DNA of 64,000 bases from Planctomycetota bacterium (GTDB lineage Bacteria; Planctomycetota; Planctomycetia; Pirellulales; PNKZ01). The DNA lies in assembly GCA_018242585.1 (NCBI GenBank), contig JAFEBQ010000002.1, forward strand, positions 1-64,000. The letters are read 5' to 3'. Within the stretch, counting starts at the first letter, position 1. Each line of letters begins with the position of its first letter. The translations under genes were made by a program, and so were the position numbers. Of the stretch, positions 10,833 to 36,009 are shown piece by piece. Under the pieces are notes generated by a model that saw only the letters and a list, made by a program, of their open reading frames with translations, did no database searches and was not told the origin of the DNA.

Positions 10833-11291
10833 ATGGAACAGTCGACAGCAACTCCGGGGCGCGCACTGACGTCGGAACACGGCGGCGTGTTGCAGTGCCT
10901 GGTCGTGACGCCCGAAGCCACGGTCGTCGAGGCCAGCGCCAACTTCATTGTCGTGCCGCTGTTCGACGGTGAATTGGGGATCGCCCCGGGACACAGCGCC
11001 ATGATCGGCCGGCTGGGCTTTGGCGAAATGCGGCTTACCTCGCCCGAGGACAAGACGACGGCTTACTACATCGACGGCGGCTTCGTGCAAGTCGTCGACA
11101 ACGTGGTGTCGATTCTCACCCATCGTTCGCTGCCGGCCGAGAAGATCGACCCGCAGGTGGCCAGCGAAGCGTTGTCCGCCGCGCACAAGCGGCCGATCAC
11201 CACGCCCGAGTTGCAGCAAATCCGCGACCGGCTCGAATCGCAAGCCCGGGCCCAACTGTCCGTGGCCCGCCGCAGCCGGCGTGCGAAGTAG
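10833..11291 (+). CDS. atpC: ATP synthase F1 subunit epsilon
   Basis: Epsilon is the small F1 rotor subunit that can inhibit ATP hydrolysis. The beta-sandwich domain is clear (QCLVVTPEATVVEASANFIVVPLFDGELGIAPGHSAMIGRLG), and a C-terminal helical part rich in Arg/Gln follows. The 152-residue length includes about 18 additional residues before the usual start. It is the last gene of the operon; a hairpin repeat element lies 23 bp downstream. Confidence 0.95.
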   Translation: MEQSTATPGRALTSEHGGVLQCLVVTPEATVVEASANFIVVPLFDGELGIAPGHSAMIGRLGFGEMRLTSPEDKTTAYYIDGGFVQVVDNVVSILTHRSLPAEKIDPQVASEALSAAHKRPITTPELQQIRDRLESQARAQLSVARRSRRAK

Positions 11292-11313
11292 GCAGCGATC
11301 GCCGCGCATTGAC

Positions 11314-11368
11314 ACCTCTCCCTTGATGGGAGAGGTCGCTCACAAAGTGAGCGGGTGAGGGTGAAAAC
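11314..11368. repeat. Double-hairpin repeat element after the atp operon
   Basis: Two adjacent hairpins: ACCTCTCCC with GGGAGAGGT (11314-11336), and CGCTCAC with GTGAGCG (11337-11353), followed by a GGTGAGGG tail and an A run. It could also serve as terminator. A homologous element in the opposite orientation lies at 14716-14776. Its second stem uses different bases that still pair. Confidence 0.8.
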
Positions 11369-11440
11369 GTGACAGGCCAATTCGCGCCGAGCTTGCTTCA
11401 CGCTCGCCTTACTCGAGACATTTAAGGCCCGCCATGCGTT

Positions 11441-11484
11441 TACCCTCCCCCAGCCCCTCCCTGCCAGGGAGGGGTGTTTATCGC
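11441..11484. repeat. Hairpin repeat, near-identical copy at 35965-36009
   Basis: The stem CCCCTCCCT/AGGGAGGGG with a 3-base loop sits in a conserved frame that starts TACCCTCCCCCAG and ends TGTTTATCGC. The copy near 35.97 kb matches over about 44 bp apart from two loop bases. It lies in the 233-bp spacer between atpC and the heme/HEAT gene, next to the double-hairpin element. Confidence 0.85.
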
Positions 11485-11524
11485 TCGCGCCGCCTCCCTT
11501 TGTCGTGATCGACGCGAGGGGATA

Positions 11525-14500
11525 TTACTTCAACGACTGCAAGAACGCGATCACGTCGCGGATTTGTTCCGGACCTAGCAACCGCTCAAACCCTTGCGGC
11601 ATGATCGACTGCGGGCTCGGCGCCATCTCTTCGATCGTCCGCCGCGACACCCGCACTTCCTTCCGATCGGCCATCCGCAGATAGACCGCGTCGTTCGTCT
11701 CGCGACTGAGAATGCCCGTGTAGGCCTGGCCGTCCTGGGTCACGATCGTATAGCTCTCATAGCCGCGGGCCAGCGACGCGCTCGGATAGATCAACGATTC
11801 GAGCAGATCGATCTGCGAGCGAATGCCGCCGATCTTGGTCAGGTCGGGTCCGATCGCGCCGCCGTTGCCGTTCACTTTGTGACAGGCCGCGCAGGTGCTC
11901 TTGGCCGCGAAGAAGACGTCGCGCCCGCGTTTCGGATCCCCCCCTTGCAACGACTGGGCCAATGACGCCAACTCACTGCGGCGCGAAGCCACGGCCGCTT
12001 CCAAGCGGGCCAGGTTCTCGCGGGCCGTCGACCGCAATTCCTCGGGCAAGGTCTCGCCCAGCTTTTGCCAGAACGCCGCCGCCAGCGCGTCGCGCCCCGG
12101 CGATTTGGCCAGCGCCGCCAGCATGGCCCGGCCGACCTCGACCGATACCGGCCGTTCATAGGCGCGGCAGAGCGCGGGCAGTTCCAGCGGTCCGGCCTTC
12201 ACCAGTGCGTCACACATCGCTTGTTGCTGCTTCTCGGTCAGCGCGGCCGCGCCCAACGCCTGGGCCACGGCCAGTCGATCGACCGGCAACCGATCTTCGC
12301 CCAAACGGACCATTAGCATGTCAAAGCCAGCATCACTCACCGGCTTGCTGCGCCGGGCCAGCGCAATCCAAGCCGCCGCCCGCACGTCGGGGGCGAGTCC
12401 ATCGCGCGCGGCCACGGCCAACAGCGCCGGTTCCATCTCGGCCGAGCCGCGCGTGGCGGCCGCCTCGATGGCCCGGCTGACCAGTTCCGGCTGATTGCCG
12501 CCGAGCGTCTCGATCACCGCTTGCCGCCAGCCGACCGGCAATGTTTCCAGGTCGCACTCGGCGATCACTTCGATCAGCGTCCGCCGTAGTGGGAGAGGAG
12601 CCTGGGCGTCGAGCAATCGCTTGCCGACGCTCGCTTGCAGGTCGCTGTCGCGGCAGAACGCCAGCAGCACACCGCGCAAAGCCGCCAGCCGTTCATTGCT
12701 GGTATTCTTGTCAGCCAGCCAGCGATCGACGAGCGGCAGGGCCTCGCTGCTCCAGCTACGGCGACGCAAGACATCGAGCGCCGCTTGTTGCAACGGCGCA
12801 TCGGTGGTGTCAAGCAGCGCCGCGACCTGGGCGCGTTTGAGCGTCTGCTCATTCATTTGATCGAGGGCGATCAGCGTCATGCGCCGTACCGAGGTGAGTT
12901 CGCTTTCAAGCCCCTTGGCAGTTTGTGCCGGATCGTTCAGTTGGATCAATGCGTAGATCAGCGCGTGCTCGACAAACCGGTCGTGGGGTTTATTAGCTGC
13001 CATAAGCAACGTCGGCACCGCTTCGTGATCGCCAATGCGTCCCAAGGCCGAATATACTTCACGCCGCAAAGCTGAATCGCTGTCAGGCGACAATGCGAGT
13101 TCTAATAACTTCTTTAATGCCCCTGTCCGGTGTTGAAGCCCAACCACGCTGACTGCAACCTGCGCTACTCGGCAATCTTTATCTTCAAGCGCGAGGTGAA
13201 TCCCAAAATATTCCTTACGATCGATGCGCGACAATACCCAAACCAATCGTTGGCGAACTTCTACACTAGTAATCGTTGGAAACGCGCTAGTAATCACTGC
13301 TGCCGCGAATTCGCTCCCACCAACAAGTCGATACATTGCGCGATCTCGCACCGCAGGACGCTCATCACCAACGAGTTCAATCAACTTCGCGAGGTCCAGC
13401 TTCTGCCACTCAATTTGCTTCCCCCGCGGGTCGTCGACTGTGGCCGCGTCGTTCTTCCGCACACGATAAATCGCTCCCAGCACGCCTGGCTTGGCGATTT
13501 GCGACGATGGGCAGCCAATCCGGAACCAGCCGCCCGTGTCGATCACCAGCAAACTGCCGTCGGCGTCTTCCAACACGTCGGTCGGGTGAAAGTCGGAATG
13601 GTCGCAGGTGAGGAACGCTTCTTCTTCTCCCTTGAACGTGCCGCCGTCGCGAGTCAGCTTGCAACGCACGACCGCGTGGGGATTGAAGTGCGTGGCAAAA
13701 ATCGTCTCGACGCCGGGGTTCGAGAACTGGGCCCCGCGGGCTCGCATCACGCCCGACGGCGCCACGCCGCCAAAGCGAATCACCTGCGGCATCAATTCGC
13801 CCGTCCGCTTGAACTCCTCGACGCAGCGTTGATCCTGCCGCGGGTAGGCGCCACCGTAGACCCAATGGACCAGGGCGTCGTGCCGGCCATCGATCACATC
13901 GAAGATCGCCACCGTGCCAATCGGCTCGCCCGCCTCGGTGAAGCAGACCTCCACGGGGTTGTCCATGCCGCCACCGGCGAACGATTCGACCTCGCTCCCG
14001 TCGAGCTTGCAGCGGAACAGTCGCGCGGCCAGACCTTTGCTGATTTGCTTGCCGTTCTCGTCGACAAAGTTGTGCCCATGCCGGCCGTCGCACCAATACA
14101 AGCGTTCGTCAGGCCCCAGGAAGCAACCGTGAATGTCGGCCGCGTTGCCCGTGAAGCCGAACTCCGAGACCAGGATTTCGCGCTTGTCGGCCACGCCGTC
14201 GTCGTCGGTGTCGGTCAGCTTCCAGATGTGCGGTGGACTGGCGGTGTAGACGCTTCCCTTGTGCCACAAGGCCCCCATCGGAAACGTCATCTTGTCGGCG
14301 TAGACCACGCTGTGATCAAAGCGGCCGTCCCCATCGCGATCTTCCAATCGTAGAATCCGGTTCGGCAGCTCGGCCATCAATTGCTTGGCCGGCAGATTCT
14401 GGCCCGGGCCGTCGCACACGTACAACCGCCCCTGATCGTCAAAGCCGGCCATCGTCGGATGCTCGACCAGCGGCGGGCCGGCGACGAGCTCGATAGTGTA

Positions 14501-14626
14501 CCCCTCGGGCACGCGCAGATCGCTCACCTTGACCGGCGGCGCGGCGGGGGGCTCGTCGGAGATGGCGGTGTCGGTCACGAAGCAAGTAACAACGACAGCC
14601 AGCCAATAGTGCCATGCTTTGGACAT
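11525..14626 (-). CDS. Secreted membrane-bound dehydrogenase-like / HEAT / cytochrome c protein
   Basis: This is a 1033-residue planctomycete-type protein with four parts: a signal peptide (1-24); a beta-propeller of the 'membrane-bound dehydrogenase' family (about 30-390); a long HEAT-repeat region (about 400-850); and a C-terminal heme-binding domain with the c-type motif CAACHKVNGNGG near residue 910, ending in PSPQSIMPQGFERLLGPEQIRDVIAFLQSLK-type cytochrome helices. The family is expanded in Planctomycetes and Verrucomicrobia and is thought to oxidise sugars or other substrates outside the cytoplasm; the substrate is unknown. Bases 13081-13320 are about 50% GC (119 of 240 by hand count), clearly lower than the rest of the gene, although the reading frame is unbroken there. 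Confidence 0.85.
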   Translation of the reverse strand: MSKAWHYWLAVVVTCFVTDTAISDEPPAAPPVKVSDLRVPEGYTIELVAGPPLVEHPTMAGFDDQGRLYVCDGPGQNLPAKQLMAELPNRILRLEDRDGDGRFDHSVVYADKMTFPMGALWHKGSVYTASPPHIWKLTDTDDDGVADKREILVSEFGFTGNAADIHGCFLGPDERLYWCDGRHGHNFVDENGKQISKGLAARLFRCKLDGSEVESFAGGGMDNPVEVCFTEAGEPIGTVAIFDVIDGRHDALVHWVYGGAYPRQDQRCVEEFKRTGELMPQVIRFGGVAPSGVMRARGAQFSNPGVETIFATHFNPHAVVRCKLTRDGGTFKGEEEAFLTCDHSDFHPTDVLEDADGSLLVIDTGGWFRIGCPSSQIAKPGVLGAIYRVRKNDAATVDDPRGKQIEWQKLDLAKLIELVGDERPAVRDRAMYRLVGGSEFAAAVITSAFPTITSVEVRQRLVWVLSRIDRKEYFGIHLALEDKDCRVAQVAVSVVGLQHRTGALKKLLELALSPDSDSALRREVYSALGRIGDHEAVPTLLMAANKPHDRFVEHALIYALIQLNDPAQTAKGLESELTSVRRMTLIALDQMNEQTLKRAQVAALLDTTDAPLQQAALDVLRRRSWSSEALPLVDRWLADKNTSNERLAALRGVLLAFCRDSDLQASVGKRLLDAQAPLPLRRTLIEVIAECDLETLPVGWRQAVIETLGGNQPELVSRAIEAAATRGSAEMEPALLAVAARDGLAPDVRAAAWIALARRSKPVSDAGFDMLMVRLGEDRLPVDRLAVAQALGAAALTEKQQQAMCDALVKAGPLELPALCRAYERPVSVEVGRAMLAALAKSPGRDALAAAFWQKLGETLPEELRSTARENLARLEAAVASRRSELASLAQSLQGGDPKRGRDVFFAAKSTCAACHKVNGNGGAIGPDLTKIGGIRSQIDLLESLIYPSASLARGYESYTIVTQDGQAYTGILSRETNDAVYLRMADRKEVRVSRRTIEEMAPSPQSIMPQGFERLLGPEQIRDVIAFLQSLK

Positions 14627-14715
14627 GCGACATCCTTCCGGCGTGGAGATGAACGGTAGGCAGGCGGGGCAGGGCGTGTACGGTCGGGTGAGTGGGTTGC
14701 GCTGGTGTCAGTTTC

Positions 14716-14776
14716 TTACCCCTCACCCGGTTCGCTATGCGAACCACCCTCTCCCACAAGGGGCGAGGGTTGAAAA
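14716..14776. repeat. Double-hairpin repeat element, inverted copy of 11314-11368
   Basis: Read on the minus strand it has the same order as the copy near 11.3 kb: a CCTC..GAGG hairpin, then a second hairpin, then GGGTGAGGGG. The second stem here is GGTTCGC with GCGAACC (14729-14745) instead of CGCTCAC with GTGAGCG, so base pairing is kept by paired changes. It fills the spacer between mfd and the heme/HEAT gene. Confidence 0.8.
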
Positions 14777-14779
14777 CAA

Positions 14780-17700
14780 TCAATCCGACTGGAGCAGTGT
14801 TTTTATCAAGCTCAGTAGCGCGTCGGGGTCGGGCTTGCTTGACGATATCGTGCCGTAAGCAGTTCGCGTGTCGACGACTCTAAGGCGCTTCGGCTGGCGT
14901 CGGACCAATTGGTCGATCCTTGGTCGCGACGAGTAGCCGAAGACAATATGATTTTCCTCTAAATGGATCGAGTCGATCAACCAGTTTTTGGCCAAAACGC
15001 CAATTTCGGTTCGCCGCAACAGCCGATCGACCTCCTCGGGCATGGGTCCGAACCGGTCGACCATCTCATTGCGCAGGTCGCTCAACTCGGCCAGTGTGCT
15101 CACGCGGGCCAATCGCCGATACAGGTCGATCTTGAGCCGCATGTCGGGCACATAGCGCCGCGGCAGCAGCGCTTCGCCCGGCAAGGTAAGCGTAACTTCC
15201 AAATTGGGCTTCGGCGGCAGCTTTTTCAGGCGGCGAACCGTCTTATCCAGTAAATCGCAGTACATCTCGTAGCCAACGGCCGCGATGTGACCGCTTTGCT
15301 GGGTGCCCAGAATGTTGCCCGCGCCGCGAATCTCGAGGTCGCGCATGGCAATGGCAAAGCCGGCCCCCATGGCGCTGAACTCTTCGATGGCCGTCAGCCG
15401 CTTAGCCGCCGTGGGTGTGAGCGACTTGCGCGGATCGAGCAGCAGATAGCAATAGGCCCGATGCTTGTAACGCCCCACGCGGCCTCGCAACTGGTGCATA
15501 TCGGCCAGGCCATACGACTCGGCATCGTCGATAAAGATCGTGTTCGCATTCGGAATATCGAGGCCACTTTCGATGATCGTCGTCGACAGCAGCACGTCGA
15601 ACTTGTGGGCCACGAAGTCGAGCATCACCTCTTCCAGCGCGTCCTCGCCCATCTGGCCGTGGCCGATGCCGAAGCTGGCCTCGGGCACGATCTGTTGCAA
15701 GCGCCACTGCAGCTTCTCGATGTCGTGGATGCGATTGTGGACAAAGAAGACCTGCCCGTTGCGGTTCAACTCTCGCAGGATCGCCTGCCGGATCAGGTCG
15801 TCATCAAACCGGGTGACGCGAGTTTCCACGGCCAGCCGGTCGGCCGGCGGCGTCTCCAAATTGCTGATGTCGCGCAGCCCCAGTAGCGACATGTGCAAGG
15901 TGCGCGGGATGGGCGTGGCGGTGAGCGTCAGCACGTCGACGATATGCCGGTAGGCCTTGAGCCGTTCCTTGACACCGACACCGAAGCGTTGCTCTTCGTC
16001 AATGACCAACAGGCCCAGGTTCTTGAATTGAATATCGTGCGACGCCAACCGGTGGGTGCCGATGACGATGTCGATCTTCCCTTCGGCCATCCCTTTCAGA
16101 ATGTCCCGTTCCTCCTTGGCCGAGCAGAAGCGGCTGAGAACGGCGATACGGCAGGGGAACTCGGACATCCGGGCCAGAAACGTCCGGCCATGCTGCGCCG
16201 CCAGCACCGTCGTCGGCACTAGCACCGCAACTTGGTAACCGGCGTCGACGGCCTTGAACGCCGCGCGCATGGCCAGTTCGGTTTTGCCGTAGCCGACGTC
16301 GCCACAGACCAGCCGGTCCATCGGCCGTGCCGCGGTCATGTCCTGCCTGATCGCCGCGATGCCGGCCAATTGATCGGGCGTCTCTTGATACGGAAACGAG
16401 GCGTCGAACTCCTGCTGCCAGAGGCTATCGGTCGGAAAGGCGATGCCGGGGCGCGACGCTCGAGCCGCCTGCAGTTCGAGCATGTCGGCCGCCAGATCGG
16501 CCACTGCTTGCTCGGCGTCGGCCTTTTGCCGGCTCCAACTGCGGCCGCCGATCTTGGCCAATGTGGGGCGGGCCTTGCTGCCGCCGACGTATTTTTGCAC
16601 CAGTTCGATCTTCGAGGCCGGGACGTACATCCGCGTCTGACCGTCGAACTCGATCTCGAGGTGTTCTTCGGTCTGGCCGTGCGCTTCGAGCTGTCGCAGG
16701 CCGCGGTACTTGCCGATGCCATGCGCGACGTGGACCACGTAGTCCCCCTCGCGCAAGTCGAGAAAGCTGTCGATGATCCGCGTCAGTCGTCGTCGCGACG
16801 GCCGCGCCACGTCGACCCGATGGAACAGCTCGCCGCCGCTGATCAGCACGACCCGGTCGTTGACCAGCCGGAAGCCAGCACGCAGGTGCCCTTGCGGGAA
16901 GTGGAGCTTCCCTTGCTTGGCCAGTTGCGTGTCGGCGAACAGCTCGCTCAGGCGTTGCGATTCGGCCTCGGTCTGGCAGACGATGTAGACATCCTGCCCC
17001 AGGCCGGCCGCGTCGAGTTCGCTGCGAACTTTGGCGATGTCGCCGCTGAAGCGCTCGACCGACTCGACCTTCATCCGGTAGGTCGTCTCCATCGAACTGA
17101 CCGACAACGACGCCGCGGTGACCGAGGGGAACCGATAGGCCGCCTCGAGCGCGGCGCTGACCGAAAAGAAGCCTCGCGGATGGTCAAGGCGGTTCAGGTA
17201 ATGGCGGCCTTCGTCTTCGAGTTGGTTCGGCTCGATCATCAGGAACCAACTGTTTCGCGGCAGATGGTCGGCCAGCGCCGCGCTGTCGCCGGTCGACGGC
17301 CCCAGGGCCGTCAGCTCGACTGTTTCCATGGTGGCCAGGCTGCGCTGGCTTGACACCTGGAATTCGCGGATCGATTCGATCGTGTCGCCGAACAGCTCGA
17401 TGCGAATCGGGTCGTACCAGTCGGCGGCGAAAATGTCGATGATCCCGCCGCGTCGCGAGAACTCGCCCGGCAACTCGACCGCGGCCATCCCCTGGAACCC
17501 TTGCTCGACCAGCCAGCGGACCAGCTCTTCGACGTCGAGGGTTTGACCGACGGCCAACCGGCGCGCCTGCCCGGCCAAGCGCTCGGGCGAGGGAACCGGC
17601 TGCAACAAGCTTTGAATGCTGGTGACCAGCACCTGGCCCGGGCGTTCGTCGCGCAGTTGCTTCAGCACCCGTAGCCGGTCGCCGAAGACTTCGTCGCGCA

Positions 17701-18016
17701 CCGACTGCTCGCTGGGCAGGGTGTCATAGGCCGGAAACCGCGCCGATTCGCGTGGCGAGAAGAGGAGCAGGTCGTCGACCATTTCGTCGATTTCGGCCTG
17801 ATGCGGACAGACGATGACCAGTGTCGCCGCACAGCGCTCGGCCAAGGCTGCCGCGGCCAGCGCGCACGATGAGCCCCGGACTCCGTCGAGCGTGGCACTG
17901 TGGCCAGCCTGGAGGCTGGCCAAAACCGCGCCGAAGTCCTCGGCCTCGAATAACCGTCCCACCAGGGGCCCAAGGGGGGCGGCCGACTGCTGTAACCCTT
18001 CCGTAGTCGCGGCCAT
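14780..18016 (-). CDS. mfd: Transcription-repair coupling factor
   Basis: Mfd removes stalled RNA polymerase from DNA lesions and recruits UvrA. At 1078 residues it is slightly shorter than the roughly 1150 of E. coli. In order: UvrB-like N-terminal domains (about 20-330, including FPAYDTLPSEQS), the CarD-like RNA polymerase interaction domain (REGDYVVHVAHGIGKYRGL, about residues 415-440), the RecG-like translocase with Walker A GDVGYGKTELAMRAAF, the DEEQ box (VIDEEQRFGVGVKE), and the C-terminal TRCF domain. All motor motifs look intact. The ATG at 18016 gives the best match to the family start. Confidence 0.97.
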   Translation of the reverse strand: MAATTEGLQQSAAPLGPLVGRLFEAEDFGAVLASLQAGHSATLDGVRGSSCALAAAALAERCAATLVIVCPHQAEIDEMVDDLLLFSPRESARFPAYDTLPSEQSVRDEVFGDRLRVLKQLRDERPGQVLVTSIQSLLQPVPSPERLAGQARRLAVGQTLDVEELVRWLVEQGFQGMAAVELPGEFSRRGGIIDIFAADWYDPIRIELFGDTIESIREFQVSSQRSLATMETVELTALGPSTGDSAALADHLPRNSWFLMIEPNQLEDEGRHYLNRLDHPRGFFSVSAALEAAYRFPSVTAASLSVSSMETTYRMKVESVERFSGDIAKVRSELDAAGLGQDVYIVCQTEAESQRLSELFADTQLAKQGKLHFPQGHLRAGFRLVNDRVVLISGGELFHRVDVARPSRRRLTRIIDSFLDLREGDYVVHVAHGIGKYRGLRQLEAHGQTEEHLEIEFDGQTRMYVPASKIELVQKYVGGSKARPTLAKIGGRSWSRQKADAEQAVADLAADMLELQAARASRPGIAFPTDSLWQQEFDASFPYQETPDQLAGIAAIRQDMTAARPMDRLVCGDVGYGKTELAMRAAFKAVDAGYQVAVLVPTTVLAAQHGRTFLARMSEFPCRIAVLSRFCSAKEERDILKGMAEGKIDIVIGTHRLASHDIQFKNLGLLVIDEEQRFGVGVKERLKAYRHIVDVLTLTATPIPRTLHMSLLGLRDISNLETPPADRLAVETRVTRFDDDLIRQAILRELNRNGQVFFVHNRIHDIEKLQWRLQQIVPEASFGIGHGQMGEDALEEVMLDFVAHKFDVLLSTTIIESGLDIPNANTIFIDDAESYGLADMHQLRGRVGRYKHRAYCYLLLDPRKSLTPTAAKRLTAIEEFSAMGAGFAIAMRDLEIRGAGNILGTQQSGHIAAVGYEMYCDLLDKTVRRLKKLPPKPNLEVTLTLPGEALLPRRYVPDMRLKIDLYRRLARVSTLAELSDLRNEMVDRFGPMPEEVDRLLRRTEIGVLAKNWLIDSIHLEENHIVFGYSSRPRIDQLVRRQPKRLRVVDTRTAYGTISSSKPDPDALLSLIKTLLQSD

Positions 18017-35878: not shown

Positions 35879-35908
35879 CCGTCATTCCCGCGCAGGCGGG
35901 AATGACGG
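35879..35908. repeat. Perfect 13-bp stem hairpin
   Basis: CCGTCATTCCCGC and its complement flank the loop GCAG. It resembles REP-like 'GTCATTCCCGC' palindromes seen in many bacterial genomes. It lies behind the broken GNAT gene. Confidence 0.8.
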
Positions 35909-35964: not shown

Positions 35965-36009
35965 TTACCCTCCCCCAGCCCCTCCCTGAAAGGGAGGGGT
36001 GTTTATCGC
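35965..36009. repeat. Hairpin repeat, copy of 11441-11484
   Basis: Same frame TACCCTCCCCCAG...TGTTTATCGC and stem CCCCTCCCT/AGGGAGGGG, with loop GAA instead of GCC. The 275-bp spacer 35837-36110 holds only this, the hairpin before it and the octamer array after it. Confidence 0.85.

Follow-up and report, generated by a model that had tools for sequence, protein, structure and literature searches.

A two-hairpin repeat behind atpC and mfd

The window analysed here is a stretch of 64,000 nucleotides (nt) from a Planctomycetota bacterium (GenBank assembly GCA_018242585.1, contig JAFEBQ010000002.1), in which two copies of a folded repeat lie just 3' of atpC (ATP synthase F1 subunit epsilon, 10833..11291, forward strand, stop at 11291) and of mfd (transcription-repair coupling factor, 14780..18016, reverse strand, stop at 14780). 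Read directly from the sequence, both copies match their earlier description, namely a pyrimidine/purine hairpin, a second hairpin and the tail GGGTGAGGG. The original prediction had described two elements in opposite orientation with a shared frame. These are real, as a strict pattern of the whole frame matched the 5.57-Mb genome at 86 places, 43 on each strand, and the reversed-pattern control at none; the opposite orientation is correct on the forward strand, with the correction that each copy lies on the coding strand of the adjacent gene. What the prediction overlooked is the third strand; with it, the two hairpins become an intrastrand-triplex motif of the BoxC kind. That motif, described in E. 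coli by Holder et al. as BoxC/PIT/TM_ECO (PMC4666352), consists of CCCTCNCCC, 3–6 nt, GGGNGAGGG, 3 nt and GGGNGAGGG, and as single-stranded DNA it formed an intrastrand triplex by circular dichroism and nuclear magnetic resonance.

Copy 1, on the forward strand, begins with the pyrimidine strand CCTCTCCC (strand 1, 11315..11322), followed by its Watson-Crick partner, the purine strand GGGAGAGG (strand 2, 11328..11335, from sequence and folding), the inner hairpin CGCTCAC-AAA-GTGAGCG (11337..11353, arms 11337–11343 and 11347–11353) and a second purine strand, GGTGAGGG (strand 3, 11354..11361), which we propose as a reverse-Hoogsteen strand. Copy 2 is a hairpin-bearing half on the reverse strand (14720..14769) made of CCCTCGCCC (14769–14761), GGGAGAGGG (14755–14747), the hairpin GGTTCGC-ATA-GCGAACC (arms 14745–14739 and 14735–14729) and the tail, with strand 3 GGTGAGGG at 14727–14720. 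The copies represent two classes, class A with a strand 1 of 8 nt (CCTCTCCC) and class B with the full 9. As predicted, the inner stems differ by compensatory changes, with 3 of 7 pairs changed on both sides (C-G/G-C, C-G/T-A and A-T/G-C). Both copies folded better than all 200 dinucleotide shuffles, with z-scores of -3.7 and -4.0 under RNA parameters and -5.4 and -4.5 under DNA parameters, and with DNA parameters copy 2 formed strand 1/strand 2 and the inner hairpin.

The description as two elements was incomplete, since copy 1 makes up half of a longer composite on the forward strand (~11312..11478, ends approximate), in which the hairpin-bearing half is followed by a spacer and an inverted plain half; similarity in the 3' flank persists, more weakly, for ~10 nt further. 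The overlooked plain partner (11442..11474, reverse strand) reads CCCCTCCC-loop-GGGAGGGG-CTG-GGGGGAGGG and has a 3-nt second loop as in BoxC. A search for inward pairs detected no inverted partner of copy 2. The third family site of the window is a solo plain half (35967..35999, reverse strand). A further perfect-looking hairpin, CGTCATTCCCGCGCAGGCGGGAATGACG, lies ~60 nt from this solo half (35879–35907), and a PVC-type haem protein encoded in the neighbourhood suggests a planctomycete-like host. A protein-based scan of named genomes, made with the gene that lies between copies 1 and 2, detected no relative.

Covariation of the inner hairpin and the third strand

Strands 1–3 were fixed in the search patterns, so that only three features could vary freely, namely loop 2, the pair on the loop side and the base following strand 3. 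A covariance model built from 75 distinct copies, a search that the original prediction had proposed, gave at least 142 genome matches at E ≤ 0.001, a number that includes the building sequences by construction and is a lower bound, as 150 of 5,666 first-look candidates were scored. Across the 75 copies, 6 of the 7 inner pairs were changed on both sides, the covariation score of the inner helix was 0.126 compared to 0.057 in shuffles, and cells changed on both sides numbered 58 compared to 21.3 (0 of 500 shuffles as high in either case). The two middle pairs were mostly non-Watson-Crick, with GA opposite GA (a tandem G.A mismatch) in 34 of the 75. Counting pairs in arms that were picked for pairing is biased, and exchange of right halves between copies served as the fair test of pairing. 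Such chimeras lowered the best hairpin score from 10.57 to 8.26 within the genome (maximum of 200, 9.04) and from 11.49 to 7.26 among the matches listed from other bacteria (maximum 8.29). The variety of stems was far greater across phyla than within the genome, and together these results support well the predicted selection on a folded single strand.

The loops of the inner hairpin belonged largely to one class, being GNA or GNNA in 64 of the 75 distinct genome copies and, among the matches listed from other bacteria, in 55 of 93 (45 of 59 triloops, 10 of 21 tetraloops and none of 13 loops of other lengths). In that latter set, 8 of 10 GNNA loops were GNYA, not the GNRA type of RNA. Loops of the form d(cGNNAg) are stable in DNA. 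So are d(GNA) triloops with a C-G closing pair, which form a stable DNA loop family (PMC5815330). An additional variable hairpin, such as TTCGGCC-TGC-GGCCGAA, stood directly before ACAC in some class A copies (loci L003, L010, L059, L067, L081, L087 and L089); the unit may thus be modular, with a third covarying hairpin.

The partner of strand 3 can be read from its sequence. If strand 3 lies on strand 2 through reverse-Hoogsteen bonds, it is predicted to be a mirror image of strand 2 in which either A or T faces each A; pairing with strand 1 would instead predict a repeat of strand 2. Sister hairpins with the arms CTTCTCCC/GGGAGAAG, which were found without using strand 3, were followed by the mirror GGATGAGGG in 54 of 56 distinct cases (22 of 23 in this genome, 13 of 13 among the matches listed from other bacteria, and 19 of 20 in a relative, G003, in which 6 of the GGGAGAAG hairpins held a direct match as well); these cases probably share descent and hence are not independent events. 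Other arms agreed with the mirror too, GGGGGAAGG occurring with GGATGGGGG (L130 and L156) and GGGGGAGAG with GTGAGGGGG (L165). Among all 127 asymmetric arms, 53 were perfect mirrors and 4 perfect direct repeats, and the preference was for the mirror in 78, for the direct repeat in 17 and tied in 32, although 96 of the 127 were shifts of the main arm, for which the search pattern mostly fixed the third strand. The 31 arms outside the main arm comprised 12 mirror, 4 direct and 15 neither.

The base directly after strand 3 was free in the pattern and would be expected to extend the triplex at its loop-1 end. In a set of 113 distinct elements, it shared more mutual information with the two loop-side bases than in any of 1000 shuffles. 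Its association with the bases 5' of strand 1 was weak (17, 44 and 54 of 1000 shuffles were as high for positions u2, u3 and u4), and Watson-Crick complementarity with u3 was seen in 32 elements compared to 36.4 expected. This base thus does not complement the one 5' of strand 1, and a three-way junction, in which strand 1 would pair with strand 3, was rejected. Counting one element per locus, a loop-side C-G pair was followed by G in 14 of 15 cases and a G-C pair in 1 of 12. The corresponding rule for T-A held in 37 of 37 cases in this genome, mostly of one lineage. In the published E. coli table, C-G was followed by G in 15 of 15 cases, the T-A rule held in 4 of 5, and unpaired T/T was followed by C in 3 of 3. 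As judged from the sequences, the third strand is compatible with reverse-Hoogsteen triads on strand 2.

Pairing, distribution and genomic context

Inward-facing inverted pairs, with the third strands facing each other and the partner within 150 nt, accounted for 75 of the 86 copies. Class A was joined to the plain form at fixed spacing in 47 of 50 copies, with gaps clustering at 30, 70 and 79–81 nt, and the 36 class B copies had a partner of the GGGAGAAGG form (20), another partner (8) or none (8), with gaps mostly of 38–43 nt. The distances between facing third strands, ~30, 70 and 80 in class A and ~40 in class B, look like steps of ~10. Among the matches listed from other bacteria, 40 of 87 had an inward partner, 8 an outward and 5 a direct one, and of five published E. 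coli pairs four were inward with gaps of 16–27 nt and one outward. Pairs in G003 also occurred in tandem arrays of 190–220 bp units. Four same-strand copies ~180 nt apart on a metagenome-assembled Proteobacteria contig (L150:2822–3399) likewise formed a tandem array. With regard to a possible MITE of a DDE transposon, class A units end in sequences like ACACC...GGTGT, and partial conservation of the flanks meant that no target-site duplication was defined for them. Inverted repeats in the spacers of pairs were significant among the matches listed from other bacteria (5.69 compared to 4.01, maximum of 500 shuffles 4.83) and not significant in this genome (5.58 compared to 5.29, maximum 5.78) or in G003 (5.36 compared to 5.57); no clear enrichment of GANTC was seen in spacer sequences (3 of 31 pairs).

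The frame has relatives within and beyond this genome. The sister stem CTTCTCCC/GGGAGAAGG gave 210 genome matches over both strands, or roughly 105 hairpins, and the plain form CCCCTCCC/GGGAGGGG gave 88 over both strands. Other bacteria yielded at least 101 elements in at least 80 contigs, with 94 distinct loop-2 sequences and one element without any hairpin; this set consists of the first 80 loci of a scan that gave at least 118 stretches, and alphaproteobacteria are heavily represented in it. By record title, the phyla among the matches listed included Proteobacteria, Acidobacteria, Planctomycetes, Verrucomicrobia, Chloroflexi, Armatimonadota and others. Within the host phylum, the pattern was present in 32 of 392 genomes and the control gave none in the rows listed. 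Presence was lineage-specific, with 53, 1, 20 and 36 strict copies in four species of one genus that includes G003, in which BoxC-like short-loop copies and hairpin copies occur together. A search of the window with Rfam 15 gave no match at gathering score, and no earlier description of a hairpin-bearing triplex repeat was recognised in the accessible parts of the literature searched.

Most copies sit at gene ends. In 65 of the 86 copies, the hairpin half came after a same-strand stop codon (within 110 nt in 58 of these), and by a home-made gene caller, on which these context counts rest, 31 copies lay between convergent genes, 44 between co-directional and 2 between divergent genes, 4 inside genes and 5 with one side unresolved. 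No element was seen in the surroundings of atpC in any of six family relatives, a comparison in which gene order was not compared in detail. Two G003 composites beside conserved gene ends were each compared with three congeners, and none of the six corresponding junctions held the element, although the flanks differed there too.

A proposed folded triplex end and its alternatives

From the sequences and by analogy, our best reading is that the repeat is a hairpin-bearing variant of the BoxC/PIT/TM kind that works like a REPIN with triplex ends. That the element is a half-unit of a REPIN-like, non-autonomous mobile repeat whose ends are folded single-stranded DNA triplexes appears to us somewhat better than an even chance. 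Each half would be exposed as single-stranded DNA, for example at a replication fork or during excision, and strands 1 and 2 would form a Watson-Crick hairpin, after which the next 14–30 nt would fold into the second hairpin, usually capped by GNA or GNNA. The final purine strand would then lie back on strand 2 through reverse-Hoogsteen bonds; the result would be a BoxC/PIT/TM-type intrastrand triplex in which a hairpin replaces the 3-nt second loop. The mobile unit, ~165 bp in class A, would consist of two unlike halves with their third strands inward, and we infer a trans-acting protein for which the folded ends would serve as the signal to copy or move them, with insertions surviving mainly just behind stop codons.

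Several observations weigh against this reading. Helix 1 showed no covariation in the 75 distinct genome copies, and two of the five covariation measures for the inner helix, the numbers of pairs and of pair types, did not rise above shuffled levels (142 of 500 each). Under RNA parameters, copy 2 preferred pairing of strand 1 with strand 3; class B carries a G.A mismatch within strand 1/strand 2; and the loops of the window copies themselves, AAA and ATA, are not GNA. Outside this genome and E. coli, the T-A rule for the base that follows strand 3 was weak, holding in 4 of 8 cases. At the junctions examined, no target duplication or base-exact empty site was found, only absence from the junction, and no mobilising enzyme was found. 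For the E. coli motif, the accessible parts of the study report that a stable triplex in vivo was not shown by footprinting and that a function was not found (PMC4666352). Finally, the position behind stop codons and the scarcity of divergent contexts fit selection on transcripts.

This last point is the strength of the view that the repeat is a 3'-end RNA element whose two hairpins protect or terminate mRNAs, which the original prediction had named as one possibility and which we regard as unlikely. RNA folding better than all shuffles also agrees with it, as does the termination proposed for a related palindrome of Enterobacter sp. 638 (PMC2869309). An ordinary intrinsic terminator was rejected, as no T-tract follows the hairpin halves and terminator-like sites in the region were at shuffled level (4 compared to a mean of 3.4); a plain half followed by TGTTTATC gave one weak terminator-like site. 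Watson-Crick pairing in RNA leaves the mirror rule of the third strand unexplained, the GNYA loops and the lack of Rfam matches in the window speak against an RNA, and, in the accessible parts of the E. coli work, the relatives had no terminator activity and purine-motif triplexes cannot form in RNA (PMC4666352). The predicted location at 3' ends stands, but the third-strand covariation and loop class point to DNA. Copies might instead have spread and changed without transposition, where a structure that stalls the fork provokes slippage during replication, template switching or gene conversion; such a mechanism has been proposed for genome instability at the E. coli motif, whose loci were more variable than controls (PMC4666352). 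The tandem arrays of G003 fit this proposal, yet it accounts less readily for the dispersal of unlike halves in fixed inverted pairs, and for GNA loops with compensatory stem changes, and we give it a low probability, below that of the RNA element.

The comparison with REP (repetitive extragenic palindromic) and RAYT systems made in the original prediction holds only as an analogy, given the REPIN-like inverted pairs and lineage-specific presence; a link to a RAYT-type transposase, which it had named as possible support, is not supported. The genome has 10 Y1_Tnp genes, of the class (Y1, IS200-like) to which RAYT transposases belong, and a half-unit of the element lies in 1 of the 10 Y1 loci. 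No Y1 gene is flanked by a pair of elements, 6 of the 10 are flanked by inverted repeats of their own that are unlike the triplex-frame element, and a same-genus relative has 1 strict copy alongside 6 Y1 genes. Two of those six carry GTAG in long flanking inverted repeats, like classic RAYT-REP pairs (L036:1387–2036 and L040:1225–2068). A REP owned by these RAYT genes was therefore rejected on their differing flanking repeats; membership of the repeat in the RAYT family is not supported, and movement by a RAYT is very improbable. A chance likeness of two unrelated GC-rich hairpins, for which nothing but the low complexity of the strands could be said, is refuted by the reversed control and the fixed pair spacing and has a negligible probability.

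The reading as triplex-ended mobile repeat can be widened, more tentatively and at rather less than an even chance, to a superfamily across many phyla in which all three triplex strands co-evolve by a reverse-Hoogsteen code and the GNA-capped hairpin is a modular second loop; cells would select for the folded DNA triplex as the recognised end of a mobile element, handled by an undiscovered enzyme acting on single-stranded DNA. The repeat makes testable whether BoxC/PIT triplex repeats ever fold in cells and what accounts for their strong conservation. Evidence of a different kind on this question comes from the natural covariation seen in the third strand and in a hairpin visibly constrained only to fold; the family supplies ready test molecules in its compensatory pairs and GNA-loop variants, and recognition of folded single-stranded ends offers a candidate mechanism.

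RIME and the long intergenic repeats of alphaproteobacteria are palindromic composite repeats that resemble ours by description, and many of the matches listed from other bacteria fall in alphaproteobacteria. The CCCTCTCCC palindrome of Enterobacter sp. 638 shares the pyrimidine/purine hairpin, a number of ~100 copies and a frequent position at the 3' ends of genes, but was described as a simple hairpin and presumed terminator, and an inner hairpin is not reported in the accessible parts of that paper (PMC2869309). REPINs and REP-RAYT systems (GTAG and CGTC repeats), which also occur in Planctomycetes, resemble our repeat in their inverted pairs of short palindromic units, intergenic location and lineage-specific amplification (PMC3733652). 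They differ in that here no GTAG or CGTC tag was noticed in the aligned frame (the flanks being read by eye only), no association with Y1 genes was seen, and a triplex-type third strand is present. BoxC/PIT/TM of E. coli and other Enterobacteria is closest, with the three strands CCCTCNCCC / GGGNGAGGG / GGGNGAGGG and their order in common, an intergenic location, copy numbers that vary between close relatives, and frequent inward pairs of unlike halves. E. coli copies are more often upstream of genes, whereas ours lie behind stop codons, and their second loop is 3 nt, as it is short in our plain partner half, whereas all 86 of our copies carry a variable hairpin of ~18–21 nt in its place. The published search for triplex motifs allowed loops of 1–6 nt (PMC4666352); the hairpin form lies outside these limits, and the superfamily is thus probably larger and more widely distributed than has been recorded.

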